Position numbers and translations under genes: made by a program. Below, piece after piece: positions 5,578 through 39,302 of a DNA stretch of 64,000 bases (positions are counted from its first letter, which is position 1; each line of letters opens with the position of its first letter). Under the pieces are notes generated by a model that ran no database searches, was not told the DNA's origin, and saw nothing but the letters and a program-made list of their open reading frames with translations. Origin of the DNA: Eutreptiella sp. 'Long Island Sound 2002' (Eukaryota > Euglenozoa > Euglenophyceae > Eutreptiales > Eutreptiaceae); assembly GCA_964036045.1 (NCBI GenBank), contig OZ038381.1, positions 106,025,367 to 106,089,366 of the forward strand. Direction: 5' to 3'.

Positions 5578-5579
5578 AA

Positions 5580-5613
<34 letters not shown>

Positions 5614-13023: not shown

Positions 13024-13066
<43 letters not shown>

Positions 13067-13115
13067 GTTGGTGGGTGAACAATCCAACTCTTCTACTCGG
13101 CTGCAGGTGAGAAGC

Positions 13116-13147
<32 letters not shown>

Positions 13148-13580
13148 AACGTCGCTTCCAACGCTTGGCTGCCACAAGCCTGTTATCCCTGGGGTAATTT
13201 TTCTGACACCTCTGGCTTCAATATCCGGAACTCGCGTGCTTGACCAAAGGATCGCAAGGCCACGCTTGCACATTGTGGACTCTTACTGAAAGTGACTGCA
13301 TCAGCAGTGCCTTTGACCTGCTCCTCTGTGAGGGGTTTCCGTCCCGCCTGAGCAGTGCTTTGGGACACCTGCGTTGTCCTGTAACAGGTGTGCCACCCCA
13401 GCCAAACTCCCCATCTGAGCAGTGTCCCGAAGCTGCGGCGAACAAAGCACCTGGGTCGCACACGGGCCCGAGGGCCCGGAACTGTGCTTGGCACACGAAG
13501 CGGTGAGGCCGTGAGGCAGGACGCAAGGGACGTGCCTCTAGGTCGGGCACCAAGAGGTGCCAGCGGCTGCCGTACCCGAA
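12340..13580 (-). rRNA. 28S rRNA 3' part (unit C), interrupted and missing the sarcin-ricin loop
   Basis: Aligns with unit B 3,740-5,223. Between 12,919 and 12,920 a 239-bp stretch (unit B 4,324-4,562) is missing, with CCCA microhomology at the breakpoint. The lost part contains the sarcin-ricin loop, so any 28S made from this copy could not work in translation. The gene is then interrupted at 13,580 by the giant retroelement and resumes at 38,910. Confidence 0.88.
13567..13580. repeat. Target-site duplication, left copy (14 bp)
   Basis: CTGCCGTACCCGAA is the last 28S sequence before the element and is repeated at 38,910-38,923, where 28S resumes. Uninterrupted unit B has it once (5,210-5,223). 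This is the direct proof of insertion. Confidence 0.93.
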
Positions 13581-13588
13581 GTGCGCGC

Positions 13589-13685
13589 GTGTGACTGCCG
13601 CACTCCCCTCCCAAGCTCAATGATACCCTTGTACCATTGGGCTGAGCCACAGTTTGTTTGTTATATAAAAGAGTGGCAGTCACAC
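13589..13685 (+). promoter_or_regulatory. Element 5' terminal nested inverted repeat with TATA-like box
   Basis: An 11-bp perfect inverted repeat (GTGTGACTGCC 13,589-13,599; GGCAGTCACAC 13,675-13,685) encloses a second hairpin (arms 13,614-13,626 and 13,631-13,643, 12 of 13 paired, loop CCTT) and TATATAAAA at 13,663-13,670. It begins 8 bp inside the element. It could be an internal promoter, needed because the antisense element cannot ride on rRNA transcription, or a structured RNA 5' end. Function is inferred only. Confidence 0.5.
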
Positions 13686-14024
13686 CCAAAAGCTTTGACA
13701 ACCAAAACAAAACTGATATTGTCTTTTCATGCAAAAAAAATTTTTCATGTTGCATGTTTGTATACCACCGGTTCCACTGTTTTCTTGTAATGGGTGTCTT
13801 TGGTGATGGGGATCCGATGCTGATCGCAGCAGAAAAATAATACAAAACTAAGAAAACGACGCACCGCCAGCAAAAATAAAGCGCAAAATCGTTTTTTCCG
13901 ACCTCAGAAACCCCCCAAAAAATTTTACGCCGCTGTTTGGCGAGGTCGCAAAATTTAGGACACTCACAAAACAAAGACGAACAATAGAGTCGCGACGGCG
14001 AAGAACCTGAGCGTTGCATGCTCC
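13686..14024 (+). other. Element leader, AT-rich segment without recognisable gene
   Basis: This stretch is clearly richer in A and T than the rest of the element and has short A and T runs. It has no convincing coding potential. Confidence 0.5.
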
Positions 14025-15260
14025 AAAACACCTAGCAAAGTGCGTGTCCTAGACGCTAGGGACTTGTGCGCGCTCCACAAACAAAGAAGAAGAAAAGAGG
14101 CGAACACCAAAAACCAGCAAGCCACGACGACGAAGACAAGAATAAAGCGACCGCCGAGCCACCTAGCAAAGTGCGTGCCATAGGAGCTAGGCGGCATGTG
14201 CGCGTCAAAAAAAAAAAAAAAGAGAGAAGGAGACGCAACAAAAAGAGAAACACCAAACCACAAACAAAAAAGACGCGACCACGGACCACGGGAAAGCGAG
14301 GTATGGCAACCAAGTATGTTACGGCCCCATGCGTCATACATATCGTATCCACCGCTACATATACGTGGATGAGAAAACCAAGTATGTTGCGAAGGAGGGC
14401 GCCCAAGGGACAACACCGCGCGCAAAAAAAAAAAAAAGAACGACGAACCGCCACGCACGTCAAAAGGCACGCCCGCAAACACAAACCACAACCATATATC
14501 CCCCATATTTATTCCTCCATAGGCCCCGACCGCCGCGAGAAAAAAAAAAAAAAAAATTCCACAAAAGCGCAAAAGGTATGGGGCGGCCACGGACAAAGGG
14601 GAAACAATGAAAAGGCGAACAAGCGAACGTTCACCAACCACGAGGAAACAACGGTACGGCGAGCAAGTATGTTAACGATACGAGGGAGGGCGCCAAAGGG
14701 ACGGACCACGCACACACGCACACACATAAACAAGACCGCAAGGAGCGAGAAGACGGAGACAAGAGCAAGGAAAAAAAAGGTATGAACCCCACACCGCCCC
14801 GCCCGCAAACACACACACGCTCTCGCTATAGGGAATGACCACGTACCACGGGGAAACAATGGTATGGAGGTATGACGAACAAGTATGTTAAAAATGCGAG
14901 GGAAGGCGCCAAGGGGACGAAAACACAAACGCACACAAAGCCGCAAGATGCACGAAGACGGAGACGAGACAAAAGAAAGTCATGGTATGCAACCCCATCC
15001 CCGCCCCACCCACAAACAAACACACGCTTTCTCCATAGGGGACGGCAACAAGAAGCGGCACAAGGTACAACAAGTATGTTGAAAAAAAAAAAAAAACACG
15101 AAACCGCCATCCACGCCCTCTCTATAGGGGAAACGAAATGCGGAGAGGTATGTTATCGAAGATGCAGCGAGAAAAAAAAAAAAAAACACGAGGGAGAAGA
15201 CACAAACCACAACACGCAAAAAAAAAAAAAAACAAAAAAAAAAAGGACCTGCGCACGCTC
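14025..15260 (+). repeat. Leader repeats with AAGTATGTT motif and oligo(A) cassettes
   Basis: A loosely repeated block ends in AAGTATGTT (about 14,311, 14,380, 14,667, 14,882, 15,074) or GGTATGTT (about 15,148), often preceded by CCACGGGGAAAC-like sequence and followed by a GGGCGCC-AAGGGGAC-like stretch. Oligo(A) runs of about 13-16 recur at about 14,207, 14,425, 14,541, 15,080, 15,174 and 15,219. A pair of CACCTAGCAAAGTGCGTG segments lies at 14,028 and 14,160. Oligo(A) runs and AAGTATGT recur in the 3' region (37,770-38,120 and 38,722). Frames read Lys/Arg-rich peptides, but composition explains this. Confidence 0.6.
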
Positions 15261-15599
15261 TTTCTCAACAGGGGAAGAAAACATGATGGGACGAAAGGAC
15301 AGGTACGTACTACGCATCACACATGCCACGCATCTCTGCTACGCATCTACAGGACCTCTTCTTCTGCCTTTTGAAACATGCCGACGACCGACGACGAGAA
15401 CCAGCCAAGGTATGACACACCCCACCCCACCAACCACACACCGCGAGCACACGCACGCGCACGCACGACAGCCACACCGAGCGCGACCCCCCCCCCCCCC
15501 AGGCCACCCACACCAACACGAAGGGCCACACAGCGCACACACACACACCAGGGCCAAGGGGAAGGGCACCCGGAAGACACACCCACCGCAACACCACAC

Positions 15600-18020
15600 C
15601 ACACCACCACCGGCAGCGAAACCCAGCCAGGAGTGGCGGGGAGTAGCACACAGGAACCTCCGCCAGGAGAGGCGAGGGACCAACCACACCAGCCACAAAC
15701 CCACCACACACGCCACCGCCGCACGCCACACGCCGCACACCACACACCGCACACCACGCACCACCGCCGACAGCGAAACCCAGCCAGGAGTGGCGAGGGA
15801 CCAACAACCAACACACCACCGCCACACACCACACACCACCGCCGCCAGCGGACCCCAGCCAGGAGTGGCGGGGACCGCCCACCACCACCGGCAGCGAAAC
15901 CCAGCCAGGAGTGGCGGGGAGTAGCACACGGGAACCTACGCCAGGAGTGGCGAGGGACCAACAACCAACACACCACCGCCACACACCACACACCACCGCC
16001 GCCAGCGGACCCCAGCCAGGAGTGGCGGGGACCGCCCACCACCACCGGCAGCGAAACCCAGCCAGGAGTGGCGGGGAGTAGCACACAGGAACCTCCGCCA
16101 GGAGTGGCGAGGGACCAACCACACCAGCCACAAACCCACCACACACGCCACCGCCGCACACCACACGCCGCACACCACACACCGCACACCACGCACCACC
16201 GCCGGCAGCGAAACCCAGCCAGGAGTGGCGGGGAGTAGCACACAGGAACCTCCGCCAGGAGTGGCGAGGGACCAACAACCAACACACCACCGCCACACAC
16301 CACACACCACCGCCGCCAGCAGACCCCAGCCAGGAGTGGCGGGGACCGCCCACCACCACCGGCAGCGAAACCCAGCCAGGAGCGGCGGGGAGTAGCACAC
16401 AGGAACCTCCGCCAGGAGTGGCGAGGGATCAACAACCAACACACCACCGCCACAAACCACACACCACCGCCGCCAGCGGACCCCAGCCAGGAGTGGCGGG
16501 GACCGCCCACCACCACCGGCAGCGAAACCCAGCCAGGAGTGGCGGGGAGTAGCACACAGGAACCTCCGCCAGGAGTGGCGAGGGACCAACCACACCAGCC
16601 ACAAACCCACCACACACGCCACCGCCGCACGCCGCACGCCACACGCCGCACACCACACACCGCACACCACGCACCACCGCCGGCAGCGAAACCCAGCCAG
16701 GAGTGGCGGGGAGTAGCACACAGGAACCTCCGCCAGGAGTGGCGAGGGACCAACAACCAACACACCACCGCCACACACCACACACCACCGCCGCCAGCGG
16801 ACCCCAGCCAGGAGTGGCGGGGACCGCCCACCACCACCGGCAGCGAAACCCAGCCAGGAGTGGCGGGGAGTAGCACACAGGAACCTCCGCCAGGAGTGGC
16901 GAGGGACCAACAACCAACACACCACCGCCACACACCACACACCACCGCCGCCAGCGGACCCCAGCCAGGAGTGGCGGGGACCGCCCACCACCACCGGCAG
17001 CGAAACCCAGCCAGGAGTGGCGGGGAGTAGCACACAGGAACCTCCGCCAGGAGTGGCGAGGGACCAACCACACCAGCCACAAACCCACCACACACGCCAC
17101 CGCCGCACGCCACACGCCGCACACCACACACCGCACACCACGCACCACCGCCGGCAGCGAAACCCAGCCAGGAGTGGCGGGGAGTAGCACACAGGAACCT
17201 CCGCCAGGAGTGGCGAGGGACCAACAACCAACACACCACCGCCACACACCACACACCACCGCCGCCAGCGGACCCCAGCCAGGAGTGGCGGGGACCGCCC
17301 ACCACCACCGGCAGCGAAACCCAGCCAGGAGTGGCGGGGAGTAGCACACAGGAACCTCCGCCAGGAGTGGCGAGGGACCAACAACCAACACACCACCGCC
17401 ACACACCACACACCACCGCCGCCAGCGGACCCCAGCCAGGAGTGGCGGGGACCGCCCACCACCACCGGCAGCGAAACCCAGCCAGGAGTGGCGGGGAGTA
17501 GCACACAGGAACCTCCGCCAGGAGTGGCGAGGGACCAACCACACCAGCCACAAACCCACCACACACGCCACCGCCGCACGCCACACGCCGCACACCACAC
17601 ACCGCACACCACGCACCACCGCCGGCAGCGAAACCCAGCCAGGAGTGGCGGGGAGTAGCACACAGGAACCTCCGCCAGGAGTGGCGAGGGACCAACAACC
17701 AACACACCACCGCCACACGCCACACACCACTGCCGCCAGCGGACCCCAGCCAGGAGTGGCGGGGACCGCCCACCACGACCGGCAGCGAAACCCAGCCAGG
17801 AGTGGCGGGGAGTAGCACACAGGAACCTCCGCCAGGAGTGGCGAGGGACCAACAACCAACACACCACCGCCACACACCACACACCACCGCCGCCAGCGGA
17901 CCCCAGCCAGGAGTGGCGGGGACCGCCCACCACCACCGGCAGCGAAACCCAGCCAGGAGTGGCGGGGAGTAGCACACAGGAACCTCCGCCAGGAGTGGCG
18001 AGGGACCAACCAAACCACAC
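15600..18020 (+). repeat. Tandem array of about 157-bp monomers in trimeric higher-order units
   Basis: The marker CAGCGAAACCCAGCCAGGAG recurs at about 15,612, 15,771, 15,890, 16,048, 16,203, 16,361, 16,518, 16,682, 16,837, 16,995, 17,152, 17,308, 17,467, 17,624, 17,781 and 17,938, giving a period near 157 bp. Two monomer types alternate as long-short-short, giving a higher-order period near 471 bp. Every monomer carries several GCCAGGAGTGGC hairpin motifs. The very long Trp/Gly/Val-rich minus-strand reading frames across this region are products of the repeat. Confidence 0.9.
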
Positions 18021-18240
18021 ACCACCCACAACCCCGCCAACACACCACCACCGCACACCACACACCACACACCACGCACCACCACCGCAGGACCAGAGGA
18101 GGGGGCGACACGCCCGCAAGCAACACAGCCAGGAACAGCGAACACCCCCCCCCCCCACCACCACCACCCCACCCCGGAGAGACGGGACACCAACCACCGC
18201 AAACCGCACAGCGAAAAGGGGGGCGGGACGAAAAGGGCCC
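18021..18240 (+). other. Low-complexity C/A-rich link after tandem array
   Basis: CACCA-rich sequence with runs of C. No gene recognised. Confidence 0.4.
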
Positions 18241-18660
18241 ACGGGGGGCGCCGGCGAGGGACCCAACCTCAGGGGTTTGGGGGCCCCCCCGGTGACCGTA
18301 TCGGCCCCACCTGAGCACACGCAATAAGGTGGGATACGCCCGGGACCGTTGGTCAGCGGCCCGCGGTGGCACCGGCCTGGGGGGGTGACCAATGGGCCTG
18401 ACCAAGAGCACTCCCCACGGCACGTACTGCGGTTCGGGCCCAGCGAGGGGCTGCGGGTAGGGCACACCGTCCATCGGGGCAGGCAAGAGACGCGCCTGTC
18501 CCGCGAGGACTCCCCAGCGACCCACAGTGTACCCGACCCCGGTGTGGGGAACGGCTGGAGTACCTGGCTACGGAACAGGTCCATGGACGGCATCCGTACA
18601 ACAGAGTTACACCCTGACGGGGAGTGCAAGCACCGGCTCCCCCACGGGGAAACACCAGGG
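18241..18660 (+). other. Unique balanced-composition block in leader, possibly structured RNA
   Basis: Unlike the C/A-rich sequence on both sides, this block has normal use of all four bases and no internal repetition. It contains self-complementary stretches, for example TTGGTCA (about 18,349) with TGACCAA (about 18,386) enclosing a GC-rich stem. This fits a folded RNA or a conserved leader segment. I do not recognise a ribozyme or protein in it. Confidence 0.35.
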
Positions 18661-21600
18661 GAAGGGACCCGAGCCGGCGACAAGGACCCCCCCCCACACA
18701 CCACAGCCGGGAAGGCCCGGGCACGACACCGCCCCAAGCGACACGGAAAAGAGACAGAAGGAGGAGGGCACACGCAAAGGGGACAGCAAGGGGACGCACC
18801 ACCAACAGACCCCAGCCAAGGGGGGCGGGGAACCACACAGCCGAGACAGGGGGGGGGGGAGCACGACACACAGCCCCCACACCAAACAGGGCCGCCAAAC
18901 CACGCCCGCAAAGGCGAGGGCAGGCGCCCCAACGCACCACCAACACACCGCACACACGCCCGAGCGTGCACACAACACACACCCCCACAACCGCCACCGA
19001 CACGGCCCCACAAGCGCACACCACACACCAAAGCACAGGCGCCGCCCGCACCATACACGCAACACACACAAACCCAAACAACAGGAACCCAGCAACCCGC
19101 CAGGGGGACTGCAGGGCCGCCAGAAGCCGCTAGGACGCAAAGGAGGACCCACCAAGCCCGCAGCCAGGAGTGGCGAACGGCCACACCCAGTAACACCCGA
19201 ACGGCCACGCCCAACACCAGGACCGGGCACTACGACACCCACACCAGCACCGCCACCAACGCCCAAACCGGACGCCACGACACCCTCACCAGCGGACACA
19301 CCCGAAACCAGCGGAAGCACCATCGGCAACACCAGCGACCCCAGCACCCACCAACAACAAACCAACACAAAAAGCCACCCAACACTGCCCAACGACCGCA
19401 CCCAACCGATCCGGTCCCCCACCGGCTCGCACCCAGAACCACCGCCACCGACATCCACGCCATCGGAAACACCAACACCGCCAAAAATCAAGCCAGCACA
19501 ACACCCTCACCAACACCGTCACCACCGGCACCAACGCCTACGACACCTACGCATGCCACCGCCGGTTCCAGCACCTACATCACCCAAGCCAACGGCATCA
19601 AGCACACCATCGCCGGCAACACCCCACCATCAGCGTCGCCACCAGCAACCTCTGCCACCGGAGGACACCGAAACCGCCACAGCCACCGCCACCGCCACAG
19701 GTGAGCCAACAAACCACCAAGCCCCGGCCAGGGGAAGCGAGGGCACGCGCCCGAGACCACCATGCAATCCCCGGCGACACCCACACCACCGGCGCCGCCA
19801 ACACCACCCTCACCCACGACACCACCCGGAGCAACACCTACGCCACCTACACCAACAGCAGCACCAGCAGACCACACCACCTACTGCACACCCCCCCAGA
19901 CAGAGCCACAGAAACCGACCACCGCCCTGAACGCAAGCCGCGGACCACCCACACACAGACCCACGCCAACCACCACCAGCATCGGCAGCGTCCGAGACGC
20001 CGAGAACCATAGCGACACCCACAACGACCTCACCACCGGCATCACCGACACCGACACCGGCAATACGGCCTCAGCACCGACAAACCAGAGTGTCAACGGC
20101 AATCGCCACGGCAACACCGCCCGGTACGACACCATCGGCATCAACAACACCAAGGGAGCCAACACACAGGCCAGCGACACCCATGGGTACCTCCACCAGG
20201 AGTGGCGAGGTCCCACCCCCGCCGTCAGAACACCACCATCCACCAGGGCAACACCTGCAGCGCCCACATCGGCGGCCGCAGCTCCACCGGCGGCGCCCTC
20301 GCCAACACCGTCACCAACACCGCGACGGCCAGCCACGAGTGGCACGCCCGGAACCGCCGACCACCCAAACACAGGCCGCGCCCAGCACCAACACCAACAA
20401 CGCCCACGCCAACAGACCACCACAACACACGCCAGCCACCAAGTAACACATAAGGCACCCTCGCCTTCGGCAACACCAACGCCACCAACACCCACGGCAC
20501 TATCCACACCACCACCAACCCCACCAACGACGGGCCGAGGTGCCGTCACCTACAACACCCACAACACCACCACCACGGCCCCGCCACCTAGGGCAACCCC
20601 ACCAACGGCGTCACCAAGGACGCCAGCACGGCTAGCGAACGAACGCCACCGAGCCCTCAGCCAGGAGAGGCGAACGCCCGCACCCAGCAACACCCGAACG
20701 GCCACGCCCAGACCCAGGGCCAGGAACTGCGACACCCGCACCGCCGCCAGCACCCAAACCGAACACCACAGCACCCTCACCAACGGGGACGCCCGGAACC
20801 AACAACGGACCAACAGCGGCCAAGTTACACCCAAGGCGTTCCAACCGCGCCACCCACCGGCCCGCACCCAGAACCACCACCACCACCAGCAACAGCCACT
20901 GACAACCCACACACAGACCCACACCAACCACCAGCAGCATCAACAACATCAGCGACACCGTGAACCATAGCAGCGCCCGCAACGACCTCACCACCGGCAC
21001 CACCGACGGCGCCACCGGCAGTGCGACCTCACCGACAGCAACCCGGAGCATCCCCCATCCCGCGTCCCGGTGAGACACCATCGGCAGCAAGGACACCGAG
21101 GGGGCCAAGGCCAACCCACCAGCCAACGACGCACGTGGGAACCTCCGCCAGGAATGGCGAGGTCCCCCCTCCGCCGTCAGAACACCGCCAGGGCAGCACT
21201 TACAACACCCTACAACGCCAACACACACAGCTCCCCCGGCAGCACCCCCACCAACGCCAACACCGGCACCACCGACAGCGGCAACACGGCGACACCACCA
21301 CCCAACCGCAGCAAGGTCACCCTAAACCGCAACCGCAGCAACACCTGTTACTACGGACCCACGGACAGCCGACACCACCAGGACCACAGACCGGCCAAAC
21401 ACCAGCCACGAATGGCACGCCCGGAACCACCGAACACCAGCACACAGGCCACCGGACCACCGCGAGACACACCACCGCCCCTAACACCCCTAACACCACC
21501 ACCACGACCCCGGCACAGAGTAACACCTAGGGCGCCCCCATCGACGACACCACCCAGGACACCACCACGGCTGGCGAACAAACGCCACCAGCGCAGCCCA

Positions 21601-23070
21601 CCAGGCCCCCAACCAAGGGTAGAAACAACAACGCCACACGCCATCGCACCCACCGCATCGAAATCACCCGGAGCAACGTCAACATCAACCAGGGGTCCCC
21701 ACCACCCACCCAAGCAGCACAAAACACCACAGCAACACCACCACACCCTCACCACCAGCGACACCACCGCCAGCACCCTCCGCCAGGAATGGCGAGGAGA
21801 AGGCCCAACAGCGCGGACCCACCCAACGTCCCCGGCACCCTCACCATCGGACCGTCACCACCGGCGCCGACCCCCAACACACCACCGTCACCAACGCCAC
21901 CGACCCCGGACGCAAAAATCACACAGCCCGCACACACGGCACCAGCCAGAGCAACGCCGACACCACTCCCGGCCAACTCACACGAACACCACCGGAAGCA
22001 CCACCGTCGACCGAACACCACGGCGACCCCAGGGTACGAGTCCTCCCACCATCTGCACGGCCAGCGACGCCGTCACCGGCACCAACCGGAACACCGACAA
22101 CGACAGCCTCACCAACAACCGACACCCCCCTACCGCTGCCACCCACCAGTCACGCCACCCGCCGTCAAAGCCACCCACCAATGCCGCACCCCGAACCACA
22201 CTTACACCCGAAACCGGCACCAGCACGCCCGGCCGAACCGTCAATGGCACCACCGCCATGGCACCGCCTACGCTCACCACCGCCACCACCACCCCACGCG
22301 AGACCAGGAACCCCCGCCGTCGCCAACGGCCTCAACGAGCACCGACACCACCAACACCACCACCGCCGGACAGGGACTACCCACAAACCAGGAACATCTC
22401 CACCACCAACAACCAATACACCACCCGCGGCACCCCACCATCGCCGACACCACCACGGCACCCATCACATCTCCACCACCGGAGGCGACGTGGGCCACAC
22501 CACCCGTCAACTACAGCACCCTCGCCACCACCGCCACATCCGGCCCACGAACGTTACCGCCGACAACACCACATACGCCCATACGTCACCCACGCCATGC
22601 TCACCGACCATCACCTCGTCATCAGAGACACCAACACCACCGGCGACGACGACAGCGACAACAGCTGACCCACCAGCTAACCACCATCAATCATAGCCCA
22701 GCACCAGCTTCATCTACTCTAACGCCCATACCACCCTCGCCAACAGCGCCGCCACCGACACAATCATCCACTCCGGCGCCCACACCACCCTCACCACCAA
22801 CATCACCAACACCACCACCCCCAGGGTCAGGGCCCGCGGGAAAAAGAACGGCAGAGCGAGCACGCCACCACCCGCACGCGTCGCCCACCCTATCGTACAC
22901 CGCTCCGCAACACGCCCCCCCCCGCTTCCCCTGACAGGGCGTGCGCTCCAGCCCACTGCTGGGAAGACGACTTCGACATCCTCCCGGCCATCCGACACCT
23001 ACTGGCAGCCACGGCCCCGCGCCCACAAGCCCACCAGCAACCCACGGAACCGCAAGAGCCCGACCACCCC
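18661..23070 (+). repeat. C/A-rich, T-poor element leader with diverged long tandem repeats
   Basis: Long frames exist on plus (for example 18,349-19,704 and 21,070-22,668), but they are Thr/Pro/His-rich, present in several frames at once, and best explained by scarcity of T. Diverged repeats are visible: the stretch around 19,950-20,230 matches about 20,908-21,190 (period about 0.96 kb), and about 19,158-19,310 matches about 20,655-20,810. The GCCAGGAGTGGCG-type hairpin recurs singly at about 19,162, 20,198, 20,662, 21,146 and 21,785. Short Asn/Thr/Gly-rich phrases continue across frame changes, so a decayed coding region is possible. Confidence 0.5.
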
Positions 23071-26958: not shown

Positions 26959-26961
26959 CGG
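26956..26961 (+). promoter_or_regulatory. Leaky stop context UGA-CGG between ORF1 and ORF2
   Basis: ORF1 ends CCC TGA CGG, and the frame then stays open without interruption into ORF2. UGA followed by CGG or CUA is the known type II readthrough context of several RNA viruses. The predicted endonuclease fold begins (EATINLLDLNH) at about 27,010, upstream of the first ORF2 ATG (27,094), so readthrough explains the layout better than independent initiation. UGA reassignment is an alternative. Confidence 0.6.
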
Positions 26962-27093
26962 GGCAAGGGCCGAGGGCACAAGCCTCCACAGCCCCGGCCC
27001 GCCCCCACCGAGGCCACCATCAACCTCCTCGACCTCAACCACCCGGCCGTCACATACTCCAAGGACGCCACAACCGCCCTCCAAGAGCTCCCG

Positions 27094-30000: not shown

Positions 30001-32307
30001 CTTGTCGGGGCCTCCATCACCGTAGTATACGTCACCCTCGCCCAAATGCGGGTCCTGCACCACAGCGGGGCACACCACACCCCCTTTCTACAGCTACCCG
30101 AATGGCCACAATACCGCCTCTTCCACCACTACCTCACACAGACAGCACGAACAGCGGGACACACTCTACCGGGCAGCAAAGACATGCGCAAAGCCTACCG
30201 AGAATTCACAAGACAACACCCGCGACCCATCCCAGAGACACCGCCCTACGCACCCACCGGATCGAAACACGAACCCGTCCCCCCAGTAACGGGCCCAGTC
30301 CCACCACTAACCCTACTACTGGCCCCGAATGAAGCCAAACCCACGCAGACCACCGTCATCCACCACGGGGCAAAATGGCGCATACCGAAACACCACATGA
30401 CCGCCCGAGACCTACCAAAGGTCCCCCAAAATTCCCAGAGCATGCCACGCACATGTTGGGCCTGTGACCCCGAGGCACCAACCGCACCATGGCCCGTGCT
30501 ACACCTCATAGCACGCCACCACACCCACCCCACGACCCACCTACCACCACAGGCCTACGCATGGATAGCCCCATGGTTCCACCGCACCGACACTAACCCC
30601 ACGGTAGCATGGAACCCCGACCACGCGCCCAAATGGCTCTTCACCACTACACCCACATGGCCCCGCCCCGACCCGGCAGGGGTCGCCATCCGTTACAGCA
30701 TGTACGAACCAGGCAGAACGGGCAAACACGAGCACCCCTACTATCCACTCCACCACTCCTGCCACACACCGGAGCACCGAACACAAACCCTCACATGCCA
30801 CGACCTAAACCCCGACACAGCCTACATCCTCCACTACATCTACTCCTACCTCACACAAGGACAGCCGGAGCAGGGACTCATAGCCCTGTCCCCCCAAGCA
30901 AAGCACATCATCTCCAAAGGAATAGGGGTGTACGCCACCCCCATCCTACAGCCCACAACCCCAGTAGCCCACCTCGCCACGGGCCTTGCCATATACGCCT
31001 ACCTGCCCATGAACCCATGCCGCCTCCCACAACCATCACCGGCGGACCGGCTCTTCTTCACCGACGCCTCAGGCGAATCCGCCCTCACGCCCATCACCGG
31101 GGGGGCCACCCTGCAACTAACCCACACCGGGGAACACTACCACATGGACCACCACACGGGCCACACCACCTATGGGGCCTCTTCCCACGGGGAGCTAGGG
31201 GCCATGGCCGACGCCATCACCGAGGTCGCGGCCCACCTACCCGCCCACTCCCCGCACATCGTCCGGGTCTGGTTCGTGGTAGACGCCACTGTCGACACGC
31301 ACCTGCTCCTCCGCATAGCAAGGCAACCACTTCACAAAGCAACCGCGACGAGCCTCGGCACCCAGGCACTGCTACTCTGGAAAGCCCTACGCAGCCTTCC
31401 CCCCTACGTCCAACTCCACATCGTGAAACAAGAGTCCCACAGGCACCAATACGGAAATGGTAAGGTCGACAACCAGGCAGTACACCAGCGCACAACACAC
31501 CTACCAGCCCTCCAGATCCCTGACCTCGGCCGCAACCACACACACCTCCAACACGTGCCCCCTGTACCCGAGCCCCATCAGACCCCGGACTGGGTACCAG
31601 AGGACGCCCCCTATTCCTCCCACGACAGAGCGTACCACTACCCCAACCCCGTCCAACATCTAGCCCGCGTCCTCGGCGACGCAGACAGCCGGGCGCACAT
31701 CCAGGAGCTCCAGGACAGACTGCAAGTCCCCCTCTACCACTCAGCGCTCCGCCCAGCAAACGTCCCAGCCCACCTCCAGAAACGACGCATCCAGCTCCTC
31801 AGGGAGCAACTGCCTTCCCTCACCAGGGTCGCCAGATGGCTCGCCCGCAAGCACATCCACGTCCCCGACGAACACACCCGTTGCCCATGCGACCACACCA
31901 CCCCGGAGGACTGGGAACACTTCAAGAAATGCCCCCTCCATACGGACAGGGACACCCTAGTGGGCTGGTCCCCGGCGGAAACCCTGCGGCAACACGAAGG
32001 ATGGCCACCCCACAGCCACGCACACCAGGCCACCGAACACCTCTTCCGGGACCCCCTGATCAAAGAAGCCACCATGAGAGGGTCAGTGACACAGGCCCTG
32101 CACCGACACCTCACCAAACACACGGAAAGCCCCATGGAAGCAGCAGCACACCTCCAGCTAGAAGCGGTCCGCAGAGCAGCAGCCCAAATGGTACACCGCA
32201 AACACCTCCTGCTAACACACGCGGAACAACTCACCGACCCCACCGCCAGGGAACACATGCAGCGTCTCATCCATTACCATGCCGTGCATGACCCAGACGT
32301 CCACTAA
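27094..32307 (+). CDS. Retroelement ORF2: APE endonuclease, reverse transcriptase, RNase H, zinc finger
   Basis: Polyprotein for target-primed reverse transcription. Residues count from the first ATG, but coding is open back to 26,959 and the domain starts there. Endonuclease (about 1-210): TFQEQGL holds the metal-binding Glu, then VINTHVPFG, IIGDMNAAP (117-120), PSRIDVCYG and TGHSPLHI, matching APE-type LINE nucleases. Reverse transcriptase (about 440-740): RPLYKKGD with NWRPI, SLDVKGAFPNTPW (motif A), GVPQGGAEGPF (motif B), GFADDTNL (motif C, FADD 675-678) and NNLIVHPTKS (motif D). RNase H (about 1320-1465): FFTDASG, SHGELGAM, WFVVDATVD and GKVDNQAV provide the acidic residues and the late His/Asp region. 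A CPCDHTTPEDWEHFKKC finger (about 1595-1612) matches the C-terminal finger of LINEs. All catalytic motifs look intact. It ends with TAA and overlaps ORF3 by 29 nt. No restriction-like endonuclease is seen. Confidence 0.95.
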   Translation: MAQGPGWVPHLLTFQEQGLQRDDPPETTPMYTPDQKAYKCYWHKGTPLYAQTGIHVHLVHHLSVPGRLGVYEVVGDGWQLNVINTHVPFGEATEPFLQALAEAYRQMAMLAPTVIIGDMNAAPTPADRGGQATPQDQAVRDTIEMLGLVDLTASLEGQPSHFPHQTDAAPSRIDVCYGDPTTIIRAEARYGPLPLGPTGHSPLHIRLTIPNLPPSPPEDADQGLPPPLKMPPLHDKHAWSQYHRAIDRARRIQPDPTDLLTAMRTAAVACGFQQHPHTDDDQPPTALGNVLHDLWHAKQQLATLLHTDTPQTRRQIHHCRTHIAQIRADLQRWHIHRQQRIAQEHERYAQHELPYKAIRHLNDAMTDTGHRTITTVRQEDGSLSNDPATVLQATQDSFLRQHTPTQDTLDPDTQAKIDRLPRVFNHAQRRHLEKRPFTIHEVRKAIHSLRQHKTPGYDGLPAEAYYHLPAHLLRVLAHRLWDIVTGRTPLPPDWANVVRPLYKKGDWANPDNWRPIVCAVTEVKIVWTILLRRIRPHLDPHIPASLWGAIPGRYPHEAIFLQDTIADMDPVDLIIASLDVKGAFPNTPWLLLEAVWKRLGLPFYNFTSDYIRTRKYTVRTGAGLTPFLEPGSGVPQGGAEGPFLYLLVTLPLALAIEQDYPAYAPYPLLSPLVGFADDTNLTVAHTPHDPHAPDPGPTVTQQANDLLDVTVSYLSHNNLIVHPTKSVAMIKGSATPPTLGPQGPPMQVVTTTTHLGVVQAANPEDATLPPKLQSHLAHLPRYASPTTKALSLSHQSLAYYLTGVLNASIGFQALHLTHPTTALQPATRAVTKAWAAHGGWPTSIPTRAIRAAWPHYGDAIGDEVKAAYTRHTALLLHRMTHNHSPEVREVTAIRLQAAQRARNTCPRWVLHQTGMPTNMNTRLWNHLQLLLPSPHHAILTNHTCPEKGPLAVLCGDLHHHPKGTIHTIDLVGASITVVYVTLAQMRVLHHSGAHHTPFLQLPEWPQYRLFHHYLTQTARTAGHTLPGSKDMRKAYREFTRQHPRPIPETPPYAPTGSKHEPVPPVTGPVPPLTLLLAPNEAKPTQTTVIHHGAKWRIPKHHMTARDLPKVPQNSQSMPRTCWACDPEAPTAPWPVLHLIARHHTHPTTHLPPQAYAWIAPWFHRTDTNPTVAWNPDHAPKWLFTTTPTWPRPDPAGVAIRYSMYEPGRTGKHEHPYYPLHHSCHTPEHRTQTLTCHDLNPDTAYILHYIYSYLTQGQPEQGLIALSPQAKHIISKGIGVYATPILQPTTPVAHLATGLAIYAYLPMNPCRLPQPSPADRLFFTDASGESALTPITGGATLQLTHTGEHYHMDHHTGHTTYGASSHGELGAMADAITEVAAHLPAHSPHIVRVWFVVDATVDTHLLLRIARQPLHKATATSLGTQALLLWKALRSLPPYVQLHIVKQESHRHQYGNGKVDNQAVHQRTTHLPALQIPDLGRNHTHLQHVPPVPEPHQTPDWVPEDAPYSSHDRAYHYPNPVQHLARVLGDADSRAHIQELQDRLQVPLYHSALRPANVPAHLQKRRIQLLREQLPSLTRVARWLARKHIHVPDEHTRCPCDHTTPEDWEHFKKCPLHTDRDTLVGWSPAETLRQHEGWPPHSHAHQATEHLFRDPLIKEATMRGSVTQALHRHLTKHTESPMEAAAHLQLEAVRRAAAQMVHRKHLLLTHAEQLTDPTAREHMQRLIHYHAVHDPDVH

Positions 32308-35300
32308 CCCGCTCCGCGCCCCGCACGCGCCCCCCGTCTCCATCCACAGGTCTCCAAGGCACCACCACAGCGCCCCGAGACCCGTCTCGCACCCAAGAAG
32401 CCACCCGGCACCGCCCAGTCCGGCCGAACCCAGCCAGGGCCAACCATCCATCGACGTAGACGCGCAAGACCCCGGCAGCCCATCCAGCCCGACCCCCCCG
32501 GACCCGGGACACCCTCCCCTCACACCGGCCACCATCCGCGACCCCGACCTCCTCCGAGCGACCCTCCAAGACAGGGCCCCGACCACCCCCCTGGGCTGGT
32601 ACCGCCTACAAGAGGACTGGACCAAGCTCACCGTCAAAGCCCTCCGGGACCTGACCACCCCAGGCAGCGGCCTCCACGAGACCATAGTAGACCTCGTGCT
32701 CTGGCGAGCCCGCAAACACACCCAGGGCCAGCCCATCTGGATCCCCCCCATCGAGTGGGGCCAGGCCCTGACGCACGACACCGGCAGCAACGTCACGCGT
32801 CGAGGGACCGTACGCCTACGGCGGGCCCAAGCGGAGACGGACCACCCAGCGGACCCGAACCACCCGGAGCAGTGGGAACAGGCCACCGCGCCCAACCGCG
32901 ACACCGCCCTCCGCGCCGCCGGCCTCCGCACCCCGGACGACGACCTCCCCCCCCCACCTACAGACAGTGACCACCCCCCGCCGGAGGTCTGGGTTACAGT
33001 CCTCGAGCGCGGCCACTACTACGTGATAGCTGCTATGACTACGTCCCACGGCCCGCAATGGATCATCCAGGGGACAGACACCATGTTCGCCCCGGAGACC
33101 GCCCCACCAGGGGCAGTGGGGGACCCCACCACCCAGCACAGGATCCTCAGGGGTCTCCTCCAGCCAGGGGAGACGCCCCCAGCCCGCGCCCTGGCCCAAA
33201 TCACCTCAGGGAAGGCGGGCTACCACCTGGGATTGTCCATGCTCTGCCTAACCCACTGGATCCAGCGCCACTGGCCACCCACGGGGACCGTGCCCTGGGT
33301 TTGGGCCATCCCCACCGCCCACACACAAGTCGAAGCAGGCCCGGACACACGACCAAACCCCCCCCCCAGGCCGCAGCAGTGCCTCACCTGCGGGTACCAC
33401 GCCATCCACAGGGTCCTCAACCGCGCGGGTCTTAGCCCAAAGCTAGCATGCCCCCTTCCCACCACTGACCAAGAGGTCCACCAGATACGAACGCTCGTCT
33501 GCGAAATCCTTGCCGCGGCAGCAGAAGACGGCAAGCTTCTCCTCCAAACCGCCCGGCCTACAACTGCCCACGCAAGCGCGCAGCAAGCGGACACATACAC
33601 CGGCGCAGCACAACCCCCCGCACAATCCCCGCCCATGCCCCCCCCCTCTCGCTGCTCAACCGGAGACCCACACACGCCCACTATCGCGCGCACCCCCGGG
33701 CCCCGCGACACGGGCCTCCCCCACCCGCCCGAACACCAGCACACGCCCGCCACACACCCACCCACCGGCCACCCTTCACCGCCCCCCACACTCGACAACC
33801 CACACACACCCGCCAAGGGGAGCCCCACGCCCCGCGGCACGCCCACCCCACCCAGTGGCCCGCCCACGCCCCCCACACACACCCCAGAGGACCCAGGCCC
33901 ACCCCCCCCGGCCCCTGAATGCAGCCCACGCGAACTGTTCCCCCCCGCTGACACAAACCCACACGACCTCGCACATTGCAGGACCCGGGCCCAGCCGAGC
34001 CCAGAAAGAGAAGGCCGCAGCCCCGCGCCTCCCTCCCCCGCCGCAGCCGACCAGATCGGCCCGCCGGGCCGCCAGGTCACGACCGGGCCCCCCCAGCCGC
34101 CCGCCCCCAACCTACAACCCGGGGACATGCCCTCCATCCTCCCCGCCGTGGCCGCGGCAGAAGCCGCCGCCCGCAAGCCCGCCCGCATCACAGCCCAACC
34201 CGCGTCCACCACCTCCTCCTCGTCCTCAGCCTCGTCCACCTCCTCCACCTCATCCTCCGACCCCCCCCTCCCCGCCAAACTCATCCTCAAGGCCACGGCG
34301 AAAGCCAAAGCCGCGGCCGCACACACCAACCCCCCAACCCCCACACAGGCGACTCAGGCACCCCGGCAACCCACCGGGACGACCCCCGACCCGGCATCGA
34401 CGCCCTCACACCTCCGGACAGAGGTACTCCTCAACCTGGAACCGGACCCCAACCCCAAACCCGACCCCAGACCCAAACCGGACCCCAACCCCAAACCCAA
34501 CCCCAAACCCAAGCCGGCGCCCACGCGACCACACACAACACCGCATACGCAACGACACAAAACCACCCGATACAACCCCCGCCCAGGCGCTCGCCCAAGC
34601 CAGGACCCCCCACCCACCACGACCCGCGCCCCCCTCCCGCCGGCATCCACCACCACCGCGGAGACGGCCACCCAGCACGACCCCCTCCAAACCCTCGTCA
34701 AAATCCCCGTCATCAAACGCCCCGTCATCCATCCCCCACAAACCACCACCACCGCCGGCCAAACCGACCCAGGGACGTGGGACCCCTCAACCATCGTCAC
34801 CGTCAAGCCCGCCCCCCAACCCTTCCTCCATGCCCACCACATAGTGCAGCCCCGGGGACTGCCAACGATGCCCAACCCCCCACCCCCACAAGGGGGACCG
34901 GAAAACCCACAAGGACTCCATGGGCCATACCCGCAACACCAACCCCACCACTACACACACCACCACCACCAGCGGCCCCACCACCACCACTACCAACACC
35001 ACCCCCACCACTACCACTGCCCACCGCCCTACCCCACCGGGCCGCAACCCCCCGTACACCAACAGCACCAGCGGACGGGATGGCAGCCGCCGAACGCCCC
35101 GCTCGCATACCCACCCCCCCCGTACCAGCCACCACCCCCGTACCAGCCGTACCCCCGCGGCCACCATCCGATGGCCGAGGGGGCCCCATGGACGACGGGG
35201 GATCTCCCCCCCCAACCAGCACCGCGTGACGCCCCGTACCCCCCCGGCCACCATCCGATGGCCGAAGGGGCCCCAAGGACGACGGGGGACCTCCCCCCCC

Positions 35301-36382
35301 AAGCGGCGCCGCGCGAGCCCCCCCAGAGGCCGCCGACGCTTCCGGACTGGCCCGACTCGAGCGACGAGGGCCGGTCCCGCAAGCGGCGGCGCTCCCGCTC
35401 CCCCCCCGCACGGCACACTCGCCCACGGCGCCCACACTCCCACCGCGCCTCAACCACCCACTCGCGCCGCTCCAGCTCCCCCAGGTACCACCACGACCCC
35501 CAGGGACCCCGCTCCCGTCGCTCCCGCTCCCCCGGGCTCCACCACGAGCGCCACAGCCGCCCCATGTCCCCCTCCCCCTCCCCCCACCGGCCACCCAGCC
35601 CCCGCCACCACCACTCCCGCTCCCCCCGACGCAGCCAGGCACGCCGCCACCGCCCCACGTCCACCTCCCCCTCCCCCCACACGCCCCGCCGGGCTCCCCG
35701 TTCCCCCCGCCACCAGTACCCATCCACCACCCCCAGCCCCCGCCACCACCACTCCCGCTCCCCCGGACGCCACCGAGCGCGCCACCGCCGCCCCATGTCC
35801 ACCTCCCCCTCCCGCTCCCCCCTCCGCCCGTACCCGTCCTCCACCCCCAGCACCCGCCGCCGCCGCTCCCGCTCCCCCGGGCACCGCCACCCCCGCCACC
35901 ACCGCAGGTCCACATCTTCCCCCCGCCGCTCCAGGACCCCAGGCACGGACCCCTCCCCCCCCCGGGCCCCCGCCTACCTCGCCTGGTGGTCTCCCTCCGC
36001 TCTGCAGGAGCTCCGCCGCTGGGTGAAATGGGCCGGGGGAGCGGGAAGACACAGAGGGGTACACACGGTGCATACCTTCGAGGAGGTGCGCACCCGCACC
36101 CCCGCAAACCCCAATGAGGCCGCCCCGGAGGCCATCATGCCGCAAGCGGCATGGGAGGCCCTCCTCCGCGATGCGGTCCAGGGCCTCCGCCCCCCCTACA
36201 CCCCCCAAGCCCTCCGCCGGTGGCTCCAGGCCACCCACCCCCAAGCCTGGGCCACCGGCGCCCCCTCCCCACCCCGCCCCTCCCACCACCACCACACCAG
36301 GAAGGGGCAGGACAAGGGCAAGGGAAGGGCAAGGGACACCAAGGACCACACAGGCAAGAGGGCACGGAAGGACCCCAAGTGA
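32279..36382 (+). CDS. Retroelement ORF3: possible Ulp1/C48-like cysteine protease with C-terminal RS domain
   Basis: A 1367-codon frame starting inside the end of ORF2 (first ATG 32,279, another at 32,288), suggesting reinitiation coupled to ORF2 termination. Residues about 105-420 look folded: LHETIVDLVLWRAR and IWIPPIEW resemble the start of Ulp1 proteases, GHYYVIAAM (His 246) with PQWIIQGTD (Asp 267) the His/Asp part, and PQQCLTCGYHAIHRVL (Gln 366, Cys 371) the Gln/Cys part. The Asp-to-Cys gap is longer than usual, so this is tentative. Residues about 430-860 are a Pro/Ser/Thr linker with poly-Ser and an NPKPDPRPKPD-type repeat. About 865-1015 is rich in His, Tyr and Pro with a duplicated GHHPMAEGAP motif. 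About 1030-1225 is a long Arg/Ser domain (RRRSRSPP, RRSRSP, HHHSRSP) like SR splicing factors. The last 140 residues contain a Trp-rich helical patch and a basic tail. RandI/Dualen LINEs are known to carry a cysteine protease; the RS domain is unusual. Confidence 0.82.
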   Translation: MPCMTQTSTNPLRAPHAPPVSIHRSPRHHHSAPRPVSHPRSHPAPPSPAEPSQGQPSIDVDAQDPGSPSSPTPPDPGHPPLTPATIRDPDLLRATLQDRAPTTPLGWYRLQEDWTKLTVKALRDLTTPGSGLHETIVDLVLWRARKHTQGQPIWIPPIEWGQALTHDTGSNVTRRGTVRLRRAQAETDHPADPNHPEQWEQATAPNRDTALRAAGLRTPDDDLPPPPTDSDHPPPEVWVTVLERGHYYVIAAMTTSHGPQWIIQGTDTMFAPETAPPGAVGDPTTQHRILRGLLQPGETPPARALAQITSGKAGYHLGLSMLCLTHWIQRHWPPTGTVPWVWAIPTAHTQVEAGPDTRPNPPPRPQQCLTCGYHAIHRVLNRAGLSPKLACPLPTTDQEVHQIRTLVCEILAAAAEDGKLLLQTARPTTAHASAQQADTYTGAAQPPAQSPPMPPPSRCSTGDPHTPTIARTPGPRDTGLPHPPEHQHTPATHPPTGHPSPPPTLDNPHTPAKGSPTPRGTPTPPSGPPTPPTHTPEDPGPPPPAPECSPRELFPPADTNPHDLAHCRTRAQPSPEREGRSPAPPSPAAADQIGPPGRQVTTGPPQPPAPNLQPGDMPSILPAVAAAEAAARKPARITAQPASTTSSSSSASSTSSTSSSDPPLPAKLILKATAKAKAAAAHTNPPTPTQATQAPRQPTGTTPDPASTPSHLRTEVLLNLEPDPNPKPDPRPKPDPNPKPNPKPKPAPTRPHTTPHTQRHKTTRYNPRPGARPSQDPPPTTTRAPLPPASTTTAETATQHDPLQTLVKIPVIKRPVIHPPQTTTTAGQTDPGTWDPSTIVTVKPAPQPFLHAHHIVQPRGLPTMPNPPPPQGGPENPQGLHGPYPQHQPHHYTHHHHQRPHHHHYQHHPHHYHCPPPYPTGPQPPVHQQHQRTGWQPPNAPLAYPPPPYQPPPPYQPYPRGHHPMAEGAPWTTGDLPPQPAPRDAPYPPGHHPMAEGAPRTTGDLPPQAAPREPPQRPPTLPDWPDSSDEGRSRKRRRSRSPPARHTRPRRPHSHRASTTHSRRSSSPRYHHDPQGPRSRRSRSPGLHHERHSRPMSPSPSPHRPPSPRHHHSRSPRRSQARRHRPTSTSPSPHTPRRAPRSPRHQYPSTTPSPRHHHSRSPGRHRARHRRPMSTSPSRSPLRPYPSSTPSTRRRRSRSPGHRHPRHHRRSTSSPRRSRTPGTDPSPPRAPAYLAWWSPSALQELRRWVKWAGGAGRHRGVHTVHTFEEVRTRTPANPNEAAPEAIMPQAAWEALLRDAVQGLRPPYTPQALRRWLQATHPQAWATGAPSPPRPSHHHHTRKGQDKGKGRARDTKDHTGKRARKDPK

Positions 36383-36576
36383 GGGCAGGCACACGCAGGG
36401 ACAGGGCGCCGGAAGCGGCACCACATGGGGTCAGGACACCACCCAAGAACCAGGAAGGAACGGGAACGGGGACCAAGACACGGAGGAAAAGGGCACCACG
36501 ACAGCCCCAGAGGACACGAGACCGAGGCACAGGCCCCCAGGGAGGGCAACCCCACGGACCGTCACGCGACCACACC

Positions 36577-37205
36577 ATGGGCTATAAGGGCCGGGCTGCG
36601 CTACCGTCGCGGTTTGACGCAGAGTATTGCTACGGGGGCTTGATCTCGGCTGGTCTCACGTCCGTGAGGGCGTCCGTCACCAACCTGTTGCGTCCAGTGG
36701 AGGAATGGCACTGCGGCGGCGCACCGATCCCGTCCATGATGAATATCGAGCATCGCAAGGGGAAGCGAAACGCTGTGATCGATCGCGAAGGCTTTGGTGC
36801 TGCTGGACGGTGCCCCCCTTCAACGCCATCTCCGAGCGCCGTGAAGACTGGAAGTACCAAGGATACTACCGATGCCCCGGACCCCAGCAGTCCAGCACCG
36901 GAGATATGGACATCCCCCTGACCCTACAGTGTGAGCTCATCCCTACCGGCGGCACCGACCCGGACCCTGCCAGCGCAGCCGAGCTGCAGTGAAAGCCATT
37001 CGCCACTCAAACAGCGTTCGGAAGCCACCTCCACCGTCCGACTCCTGATGTCTGTTTGTCTGCCTTGGAGAAGGAACGCTTTTCCTACACCCCGAGTACA
37101 CCTGCCTGTCTGCGAGGCCCGGTGAAGATTGAGTCCATGGGTGAGAGTCAGTGTGCACGCCCCAAGGACACCGTGATCATTCAGCAGAATTTCCCGAAGA
37201 CCTAA
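36577..37205 (+). pseudogene. Decayed fragment of PPi-dependent phosphofructokinase, junction of a double-domain enzyme
   Basis: The translation starts GYKGRAALPSRFDAEYCY and continues with LLRPVEEWHCGGAP and MMNIEHRKGK, closely matching the conserved C-terminal half of PPi-phosphofructokinase (plant beta subunit: PVEEWTVGGTALTSLMDVERRHGK). Homology then moves frame twice: a 4-bp ATCG duplication near 36,777-36,785 and an extra C in the C run near 36,811-36,817. It continues through PFNAISERREDW and DIPLTLQCELI, meets a TGA at 36,990-36,992, and reads on in that frame into FSYTPSTPACLRGPVKIE and QQNFPKT, which resembles the start of a second phosphofructokinase domain. That order fits a fused double-domain enzyme. 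Codon use is balanced, unlike the C-biased element ORFs, and no introns are seen, suggesting a captured cDNA-like piece. Family call is from memory of the family's motifs. Confidence 0.72.
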
Positions 37206-37769
37206 CGGACCCACACAGGCCAGGCTGACCTCCGCTGACCCACCGCGGCACCACGCGAGACCACGGCACACCACACCACAGCGCGCCACAGAGCAACGCA
37301 CCACAGCACGACGCGACGCGACGCGGCACAGAGCGGCACAACACGACACAACTGACCCTAACCTGAGGGACTAACCGAAGCCAGCCACCGCACACCCGGG
37401 AAGGCGCCGCGCCACCACGCCACACACCGGCACCACAGGCCACACACGGGACCACAGAGCGCCAGGCGACAACGGTGACGGACCACCCAGAAGATTACAG
37501 CCGGCACCGCGGAGGGGTAAGGACACGAGCAACCCCAGCCCCCTAACCCAAAACCACAAGCAGCCGCCTGGCGCAGCCGCCCAGCCGGCAGAGCCAGGAC
37601 CTAACCCAGCAAGAAGGGGCGCCGAGCCCACAGTGTACAGAGCCCACCCGACCCATGGGGCCGGAACATGGCCACACAGAACGCAACTGAAAACACCAGC
37701 CCGGAAGACAACACTGAATACAGGCCAGTGCGTGCGCCAGCCCAGGGAAGGCAGAGGGAGGAACAGGCA

Positions 37770-38120
37770 AGCCCCCCCCCAAAAAAAAAAAAAAAAAGGA
37801 GGGGGGAAGGGGAAAAGGCACGAAAACAGCCCACAGCCGCCCAACCACCCGCCAACACCACCACAGGCGGCCAGGCCCCCCCCCCAGAAAAAAAAAAAAA
37901 AAGGGGGGGGACCCCCGCAGAGGCACAGGCGAACCACCCACCCAAAACCGGCAACACCAAGCCAGTAACAGCGGACCACGGGGAAAAGGGACAGAAAAAA
38001 AAAAAAAAAGAGAGCCACCAGCCCAGCCCGAAAGAAAGGGGATGGAGGGACAGCGACCACAAAGCCCAGAAAAAAAAAAAAAAAAGAAAAGAAAAAACCA
38101 AAGCAAAAAAAAAAAAAAAA
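37770..38120 (+). repeat. Oligo(A) cassettes in element 3' region
   Basis: Runs of about 14-17 A occur at about 37,781, 37,888, 37,996, 38,070 and 38,106, separated by C- or G-rich segments. They resemble the oligo(A) cassettes of the leader (14.2-15.2 kb). They could be relics of polyadenylated ends or slippage-prone tracts, and their lengths are uncertain in any assembly. Confidence 0.6.
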
Positions 38121-38894
38121 CACACCCCGACAACCCAGCCAAGACGGACTGGGGACAGGCGAGACCCGGGCCCGGCACACACGCCCACACCGCGCGCCGG
38201 AACCGGAAACGGCGGGGGGCAAGCAGGGCGCCCACGAAACCACACACGTCCCAAAAGCAGACCGAAACCGAAGCCCAACCACGAACACCACAAATAGCCG
38301 ACACTAGGGGGACAACACCACAAATCGAGCCCAAAAACACCCACCCTAAACCCCAGCCAGGACAGACGGGGTTAACAAAACCCGCACCCAACCGCCAACC
38401 GGACCCAAACACAAACACCACACAACAGTAGGAAACCCAGTGCCCACAGCCCGGGCACTGAGGCAGCCCGTGCCATGCAGGTGACCCGGCCAAACGAGAT
38501 CCGGAGCCCGGGGGTAAGGCTGCATCCTAAGGCCTGCGCTGCTTTGGGACTCGAGGCGGAGCGTGCGACACCCAAGCGCCTCGGAACCCTAGTACCAGGA
38601 ACGTGCATGCACGCCTTGGGAACGGGATACGCCAGGAAGTCCGGTGAACCCCTAGGGTTCCGCCCAAAGGAGGGGACGTGCGCAAGCACGGGGGCACACC
38701 CTCCCGGCGAGACAAGTATGTCACGCTGGCGGCGATCAGCCCTCCCGGCGTAGCCCGGGGCCGCTTTGTTGGGGGCCAACAGTCAGGTCTAGCGGGAAGT
38801 AAGCCGCCTCCCCTCTTCACGCGCGAAGCCTCTTCCTGTTCGTCACAGGGGCGACGCCAGGGGGAACCATGGGGCGCCTCTCCACGACCGAGTG

Positions 38895-38909
38895 CACCTA
38901 CCTACCTAC
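38895..38909 (+). repeat. Short tandem (ACCT)n-like tail at element 3' end
   Basis: CACCTACCTACCTAC, just over three copies of a 4-bp unit, abuts the right target-site duplication. Short simple-repeat tails are common at the 3' ends of non-LTR elements and confirm the plus orientation. Confidence 0.7.
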
Positions 38910-38923
38910 CTGCCGTACCCGAA
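38910..38923. repeat. Target-site duplication, right copy (14 bp)
   Basis: CTGCCGTACCCGAA, identical to 13,567-13,580, is followed directly by the 28S sequence that follows it in unit B. Confidence 0.93.
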
Positions 38924-39253
38924 TCATCCGATTAGTAAAGCGGCTCTGGAGGTAGTGGTATTTCATTGCAAGCTTGCGCGTAGCAGCGCGGAGCCTCATC
39001 ATCCAGAAGGAAGGAAGAGCTGACAGTCGAGATGGCCGCGAAGGCCATGATCAATGCCATGAGTTGGCGCGCACTTCCCACCTGTGCTACACCCTCCATG
39101 CTGCTGCACTCTGTCAGACTAGAGTCAAACTCAACAGGGTCTTCTTTCCCCGCTGGAACACCCAAGCCCGTTCCCTTGGCGGTTGGTTCACCAGCCAGCA
39201 TCTAGGGACAGCAGGAATCTCGTTGATCCATTCATGCGCGTCAATAATCAGTC

Positions 39254-39302
<49 letters not shown>

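Follow-up and report, generated by a model that had tools for sequence, protein, structure and literature searches.

The stretch analysed here (the window) comprises 64,000 nucleotides of Eutreptiella sp. 'Long Island Sound 2002' (assembly GCA_964036045.1, contig OZ038381.1, positions 106,025,367 to 106,089,366 of the forward strand). It contains ribosomal DNA (rDNA) in which one 28S gene is interrupted by an insert of about 25 kb, nearly all of it a long interspersed nuclear element (LINE) with an apurinic/apyrimidinic endonuclease (APE) and a reverse transcriptase (RT). The insert is very probably explained by the chance insertion of a giant, high-copy APE-type LINE, found genome-wide, into one of the three units of a decayed rDNA island. 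The insertion was judged from the assembly sequence (2.28 Gb). The features on which this reading is based are the following:

1..45804 (plus 495 bp before the window), minus strand: relic rDNA island of three incomplete units (A, B and C), unit C carrying the LINE
5210..5223, plus strand: empty target site in unit B
13567..13580, plus strand: 5' copy of the target site duplication CTGCCGTACCCGAA (28S)
13581..13821 (241 bp), plus strand: segment from within a different dispersed repeat, joined to the 5' end of the LINE
13822..38909, plus strand: LINE of 25,088 nt, near full length
38896..38909, plus strand: (ACCT)n 3' tail of the LINE
38910..38923, plus strand: 3' copy of the target site duplication CTGCCGTACCCGAA

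The insert and its boundaries

Three copies of the 14-mer CTGCCGTACCCGAA are present in the window, starting at 5210, 13567 and 38910, all of them on the plus strand. Unit B has a single copy and its site is empty, and the interrupted 28S gene has one copy on each side of the foreign DNA, so the insert can be placed at 13,581-38,909 (25,329 bp). The adjoining 28S sequence has 97% identity to unit B on either side. The open reading frame (ORF) with the RT lies on the plus strand and the rRNA genes on the minus strand, and the insertion is therefore antisense. In the sense of the rRNA the target is found 280 nt past an R1-like motif and 343 nt past an R2-like motif, both of which are unbroken in units B and C and which we take to be the R1 and R2 insertion sites. 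The original prediction, made from the letters of this DNA, had described a perfect 14-bp duplication of 28S sequence present once in unit B, an antisense placement, a position about 280 nt downstream of the R1 site and empty R1 and R2 sites; all four agree with these measurements, the last two on the assumption that the two motifs are the R1 and R2 sites. Its 25.3-kb LINE-type element is real as an insert, although the first 241 bp do not belong to the LINE, which occupies 13,822-38,909.

The insert is in fact a chimera, with 241 bp of another repeat followed by the near-complete LINE of 25,088 nt. Of 529 candidates for the match 13,578-13,823, 40 were scored; one is the window's own, and the other 39, which lie elsewhere at 94-99%, all stop at position 324 of the query, none of them continuing into the LINE. 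Moreover, every one of the 29 donor-repeat copies examined continues on both sides into other sequence of its own, and their alignment places the 241-bp piece within a longer conserved unit. With at most 2 mismatches allowed, the assembly contains the joint between piece and LINE once. The trinucleotide GAA is common to the source of the piece and the 28S target, and GA is common to the piece and the LINE. In the retrieved stretches L010-L038 the donor repeat starts near L010:1301 and extends past the end of the stretch; a search of L010 against Rfam gave no identity above the gathering score (one match at E 0.21).

Chimeras of this kind have a known counterpart, as LINE-1 is reported to acquire pieces of other RNAs at its 5' end, through RNA ligation or template switching (PMC13174262, in part). 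The likeness to the cases described in that part of the source consists of a foreign, RNA-derived piece at the 5' end within one duplication; the differences are that another LINE is involved and that the partner is here a piece of a dispersed repeat and not an assigned RNA. The mechanism that we infer is that of the LINE class, whose hallmarks are seen in this insert. The endonuclease of the element would nick the 28S target and the (ACCU)n tail would serve target-primed reverse transcription, during which the RT would copy nearly the entire 25-kb RNA. Near the 5' end of this RNA the RT may have switched to a 241-nt RNA of the dispersed repeat through the 2 nt of shared sequence, and the far end would then have joined the target through the three shared nucleotides (GAA), giving the 14-bp duplication.

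The piece might also have been acquired by 5' transduction, from a donor LINE copy lying inside the other repeat and transcribed from a start upstream. Its direct junction with the 5' end of the LINE, within the same duplication, would be expected in that case, but no second copy of the joint was found when up to 2 mismatches were allowed across the assembly, and only the window's own match, among the 40 scored, continues into the LINE. We consider this origin unlikely and disfavour it. An error of assembly, by which a stretch of LINE was wrongly joined into rDNA, is a far less probable explanation of the whole insert. Repeats on both sides make such a misassembly possible; however, the target duplication has the usual length, the (ACCT)n tail abuts the target, the order of the 28S sequence is correct on both sides and both 5' joints have shared bases, all of which are expected of retrotransposition and not of misassembly.

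The struck rDNA and the choice of target

The rDNA that received the LINE is a decayed relic island of about 46.3 kb in all. Unit A is cut within the large subunit (LSU) gene, of which only 495 bp more are present before the start of the window; over the preceding 9,967 bp Rfam gives no match at its gathering score. Unit B is without 648 bp of LSU sequence that is present in unit C and in a unit on contig C257. The match of unit C to units A and B ends at 45,804, so that unit C is without about 188 nt of the 5' end of the small subunit (SSU) gene and everything upstream; near 12,919, close to the 3' end of the LSU, it is also without about 239 bp that unit B has. One result speaks against the incompleteness of unit C, the end-to-end SSU match that Rfam gives it with its microsporidian model (43,768-45,870). 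Regular rDNA arrays are located elsewhere, on contigs C257, C249 and C4 (at 42.7 Mb), with spacings such as 9,382 and 9,557 bp. The earlier view of an insertion in an ordinary rDNA array has thus been corrected to one in a relic island of three incomplete units.

Four other places (C6:47.7 Mb, C12:19.0 Mb, C6:9.79 Mb and C4:23.5 Mb) have one to three 28S matches each among the matches listed, compared with longer runs such as that at C4:42.7 Mb. Several blocks of 77-bp tandem repeats are found beside the island, at 55700-63707 of the window.

The LINE itself is dispersed in the genome. A search with the query 13,500-14,500, in which 40 of 2,922 candidates were scored, listed 41 matches, namely the window's own, one shorter match at 91% and 39 matches at 97-99% that start at or near 13,822 and are spread over 18 contigs. 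Patterns for the two ends, each with at most 1 mismatch, were counted in the whole assembly: an 18-nt pattern for the 5' end has 1,305 hits (631 + 674) and a 20-nt pattern for the 3' end has 5,172 (2,579 + 2,593). These counts may take in related subfamilies, and the reversed patterns used as controls gave 0 for either end. The 5' ends therefore amount to a quarter of the 3' ends.

Both ends were sought in 28 dispersed copies (8 of the 10 initially chosen and 20 more); the two left out were C682, the 3' end of which was not found in the stretch, and the second C24 copy, the 3' stretch of which was outside the sample. In 13 of the 28 the element is bounded by perfect duplications of 10-17 bp, whose sequences differ from copy to copy. 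All 13 share the beginning GTCGCGCGATCGCAG and the (ACCT)n tail, and have between 0 and 40 nt of extra bases between the duplication and the start of the element. The filler of the rDNA copy stands apart from these by its 241 bp and its origin from another repeat. When the 28S copy is added, TG or CTG opens 9 of 14 duplications, a boundary that is ambiguous with a tail ending in CCT. Such duplications, fillers and tails are what target-primed reverse transcription leaves behind when the choice of target is loose.

The 5' extra bases can be inherited, since three copies on C7 have the same ones. These copies (L046, L056 and L058) have a common 5' extension with (GGCA)n ahead of GTCGCGC and yet different target duplications; it seems that a former filler became part of the 5' end of the element and was then passed on.

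A preference for this 28S site can be excluded, because the pattern spanning the tail and the 28S has one occurrence in the 2.28-Gb assembly (up to 2 mismatches) and because all 40 copies scored with a 701-bp 28S query across the site are unbroken (unit B included; 652 candidates). In addition, the examined stretches of the other copies (L002-L008, L010-L101) gave no match to the rDNA of the window at E 1e-5. Some observations do speak against a chance event caused by an element of loose target choice. The scored 28S copies are only 40 of 652 candidates, and a copy with an interruption would receive a lower score, which leaves room for insertions at other 28S positions. Moreover, 9 of the 28 copies are without a clear duplication, 5 are without a 3' end in the examined stretch and 1 is an artefact in a tandem repeat, and C682 and the second C24 copy lie outside the set checked for duplications.

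Membership of R1 or R2 was rejected, as the target is 280 and 343 nt away from the R1-like and R2-like motifs, the orientation is antisense and there is no repeated insertion at the site. The LINE resembles these and other 28S-specific LINEs in its location in the 28S and in having an RT, and differs from them in its want of site specificity, its antisense orientation, its other position and its thousands of ends outside the site. The original prediction had likened the element to the rDNA specialists, with a new 28S site, and had proposed a search for the 28S/element junctions in the genome. This search returned a single junction, with copies dispersed elsewhere, and refutes site specificity; what stands is a giant antisense non-LTR element (one without long terminal repeats, LTRs) at a 28S position that is neither that of R1 nor that of R2. 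An rDNA specialist inserted antisense at a new 28S target, a reading that the perfect 28S duplication and the clean insertion would suit and that would have meant a new target site, is the least probable of all and fails on the unique junction, the 40 unbroken copies of 40 scored, the thousands of ends elsewhere with targets that differ among the copies examined, and the position of the struck unit in a relic island.

Size, composition and relatives of the LINE

In all eight copies for which both ends are available the LINE measures 24.78-25.09 kb. It had been predicted to be several times longer than typical LINEs, and these copies (24.8-25.1 kb in 8 of 8) confirm it; the family is about four times what we take to be the usual LINE size. 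The rDNA-borne copy is only without the approximately 7 nt GTCGCGC that precede the point corresponding to 13,822 in other copies. If each 5' end represents one copy of about 24.9 kb, the 1,305 copies would total about 32 Mb. One copy of 24.9 kb on C24 is nested within another copy of the same LINE. In stretch L075 the 3' flank of the copy resembles another LINE 3' end in the opposite direction; two copies are seemingly placed tail to tail. The 5' region includes the following feature:

15783..18087, plus strand: 157-bp tandem array of about 14 copies

The composition of the sense strand is also unusual, with 26% A, 43% C, 23% G and 8% T, and T makes up only 3-4% of third codon positions, whereas composition is balanced in the right flank (48-64 kb of the window). 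The base composition of LINEs is described as varying between clades and hosts (PMC7140322, in part).

The element has the characters of an APE-type LINE, namely an RT, an APE, duplications of variable length, 5'-truncated copies and no LTRs; no direct repeat of at least 60 bp joins the ends of the insert, and its internal matches are tandem or of low complexity only. The closest grouping is presumably that of the APE-type LINEs with RNase H (I, R1, Tad, ingi and similar). It has in common with them the APE, the RT, RNase H-like motifs (recognised by eye), a C-terminal Cys/His motif, target duplications of variable length, 5' truncation and a simple-repeat tail. It differs from them in its length of about 25 kb, its three ORFs, its 9-kb 5' region with a tandem array, its extreme shortage of T, and an ORF1 and ORF2 that form one frame split by UGA-CGG. 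Giant retroelements have been described in other classes, such as Burro and Ogre (LTR) and the Terminons (Penelope-like) (PMC6431247, in part). The present LINE is like them in going far over the usual size of its class and unlike them in class, there being no giant LINE among the elements named in that part of the source.

Among elements of a known kind, the LINE stands out by its size and perhaps by its translation. A family of about four times the usual size that still spreads as full-length copies makes both the processivity of its RT and the purpose of the extra sequence open to testing.

Coding capacity and the junction of ORF1 and ORF2

The LINE has three long ORFs, with these features:

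23071..26958, plus strand: ORF1, 1,295 aa counted from its first Met, in a frame that is open from 22,723; without a recognised domain
26956..26958, plus strand: in-frame UGA, the one stop that separates ORF1 from ORF2; the next codon is CGG (type II readthrough context)
26959..32307, plus strand: frame of ORF2, first Met at 27,094 and 1,737 aa from there; APE and RT, with RNase H-like motifs and a C-terminal Cys/His motif by eye
26960..27005, plus strand: predicted RNA stem-loop directly 3' of the UGA
27220..27651, plus strand: APE endonuclease (Pfam PF03372, 25.6 bits against a cut-off of 24.5)
28603..29283, plus strand: reverse transcriptase (Pfam PF00078, 54.1 bits against a cut-off of 29.6)
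31060..31440, plus strand: RNase H-like motifs TDAS, SHGEL, VVDATVD and VKQESH (by eye)
32279..36382, plus strand: ORF3, 1,367 aa, in another frame, with a 29-nt overlap with ORF2

The best match of the RT in the PDB is human L1 ORF2p (E 9.1e-13). The APE match was obtained with the translation of 26,959-28,300 and was not reported for the 1,737-aa ORF2 at E 0.1; in the sister proteins P0005 and P0006 the APE is above the cut-off. The four RNase H-like strings are also present in P0006, and Pfam gave no match for RNase H in ORF2. The cluster of the RT ORF (P0001) numbers 758 sequences; at 55-56% there are two sister clusters, of 425 and 469 sequences.

The T-poor composition makes long open frames cheaper than usual, and ORFs of 1,295-1,737 codons are still far beyond what it would give. 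Between the window and the C24 copy the divergence is 0.49% in ORF1, 0.59% in ORF2, 0.88% in ORF3, 0.95% in the 3' region and 1.38% in 18,000-23,070. ORF1 and ORF2 have no indels, and codon position 3 takes 10 of the 19 and 17 of the 31 substitutions, respectively. In ORF3 position 3 is not enriched in this way (11 of 36) and the C24 copy has a gap of 1 bp, and the coding status of ORF3 consequently rests on its length and on one relative at 77-78%, P0025. A Ulp1-like cysteine protease was considered for ORF3 from a histidine/cysteine pattern seen by eye; Pfam and the PDB gave no match to it and the model was of no use, with a mean predicted local distance difference test (pLDDT) score of 32.7, so this identity is not claimed.

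Some retroviruses make Gag-Pol through readthrough of a stop codon. In this LINE ORF1 and ORF2 are one frame, split by the single UGA at 26,956, and the APE domain starts (TINLLDLNHP) before the first Met of ORF2, with no in-frame AUG seen by eye from the UGA to that start. The 130-nt stretch after the UGA is predicted to fold at -43 kcal/mol (z -2.68), and 3 of 200 shuffles fold equally well. The type II readthrough context is described as UGA followed by CGG or CUA, with a stem-loop from about 8 nt 3' of the stop, and the type I motif as CARYYA (PMC3542737, in part). The predicted stem-loop starts here after one unpaired C past the stop, nearer to it than the about 8 nt of that description. 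UGA-CGG is present in all seven other copies that span the stop (two more stretches start downstream), which is weak evidence of constraint because the seven belong to one subfamily. As read from the sequence, UGA-CGG before a stem-loop suggests stop-codon readthrough that would give an ORF1-ORF2 fusion, and the element probably yields ORF1 together with this fusion, and ORF3 from the overlapping frame.

The same layout recurs in a sister LINE in stretch L055 (4500-9001), which is G-rich and T-poor and whose ORF2 is 31% identical to P0006. Its ORF1 and ORF2 are also in one frame with one UGA, followed by CAAUUA, which fits the type I motif CARYYA. An AUG comes 9 nt after the first base of the UGA, a stretch resembling the start of the APE is present at the corresponding place, and no stable RNA structure is predicted after this UGA (z +1.75). 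There is a further stop in ORF2 of this copy, at 7,791, and the ends of ORF1 in the two families show no significant homology (E 1.2).

Translation of ORF2 could instead begin through reinitiation or at a codon other than AUG, which we consider somewhat less probable than not for the rDNA-borne family. SART1 is reported to use reinitiation, which has also been proposed for LINE-1 (PMC5972666, in part). In the L055 family it is an equal rival of readthrough, given the AUG right behind the UGA and the want of a predicted stable structure. In the rDNA-borne family, however, there is by eye no in-frame AUG before the start of the APE, the first being at 27,094. The sequence GCCACCAUC at the start of the APE would offer a non-AUG codon; nevertheless its AUC is replaced by GUC in 3 of 10 copies and a start at AUC was rejected. 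Against both modes of initiation, UGA-CGG with its stem-loop fits type II readthrough.

The one-frame arrangement ORF1-UGA-ORF2 in two divergent families offers a specific and easily tested claim on the translation of LINEs. It can be proposed, with about an even chance of being right, that a clade of giant LINEs (about 25 kb) makes its endonuclease and RT as an ORF1-ORF2 fusion by programmed readthrough of a single UGA (at UGA-CGG with a stem-loop here and at UGA-CAAUUA without a stem-loop in the sister), with an RT processive enough for the 5' ends to reach a quarter of the 3' ends at such a length.

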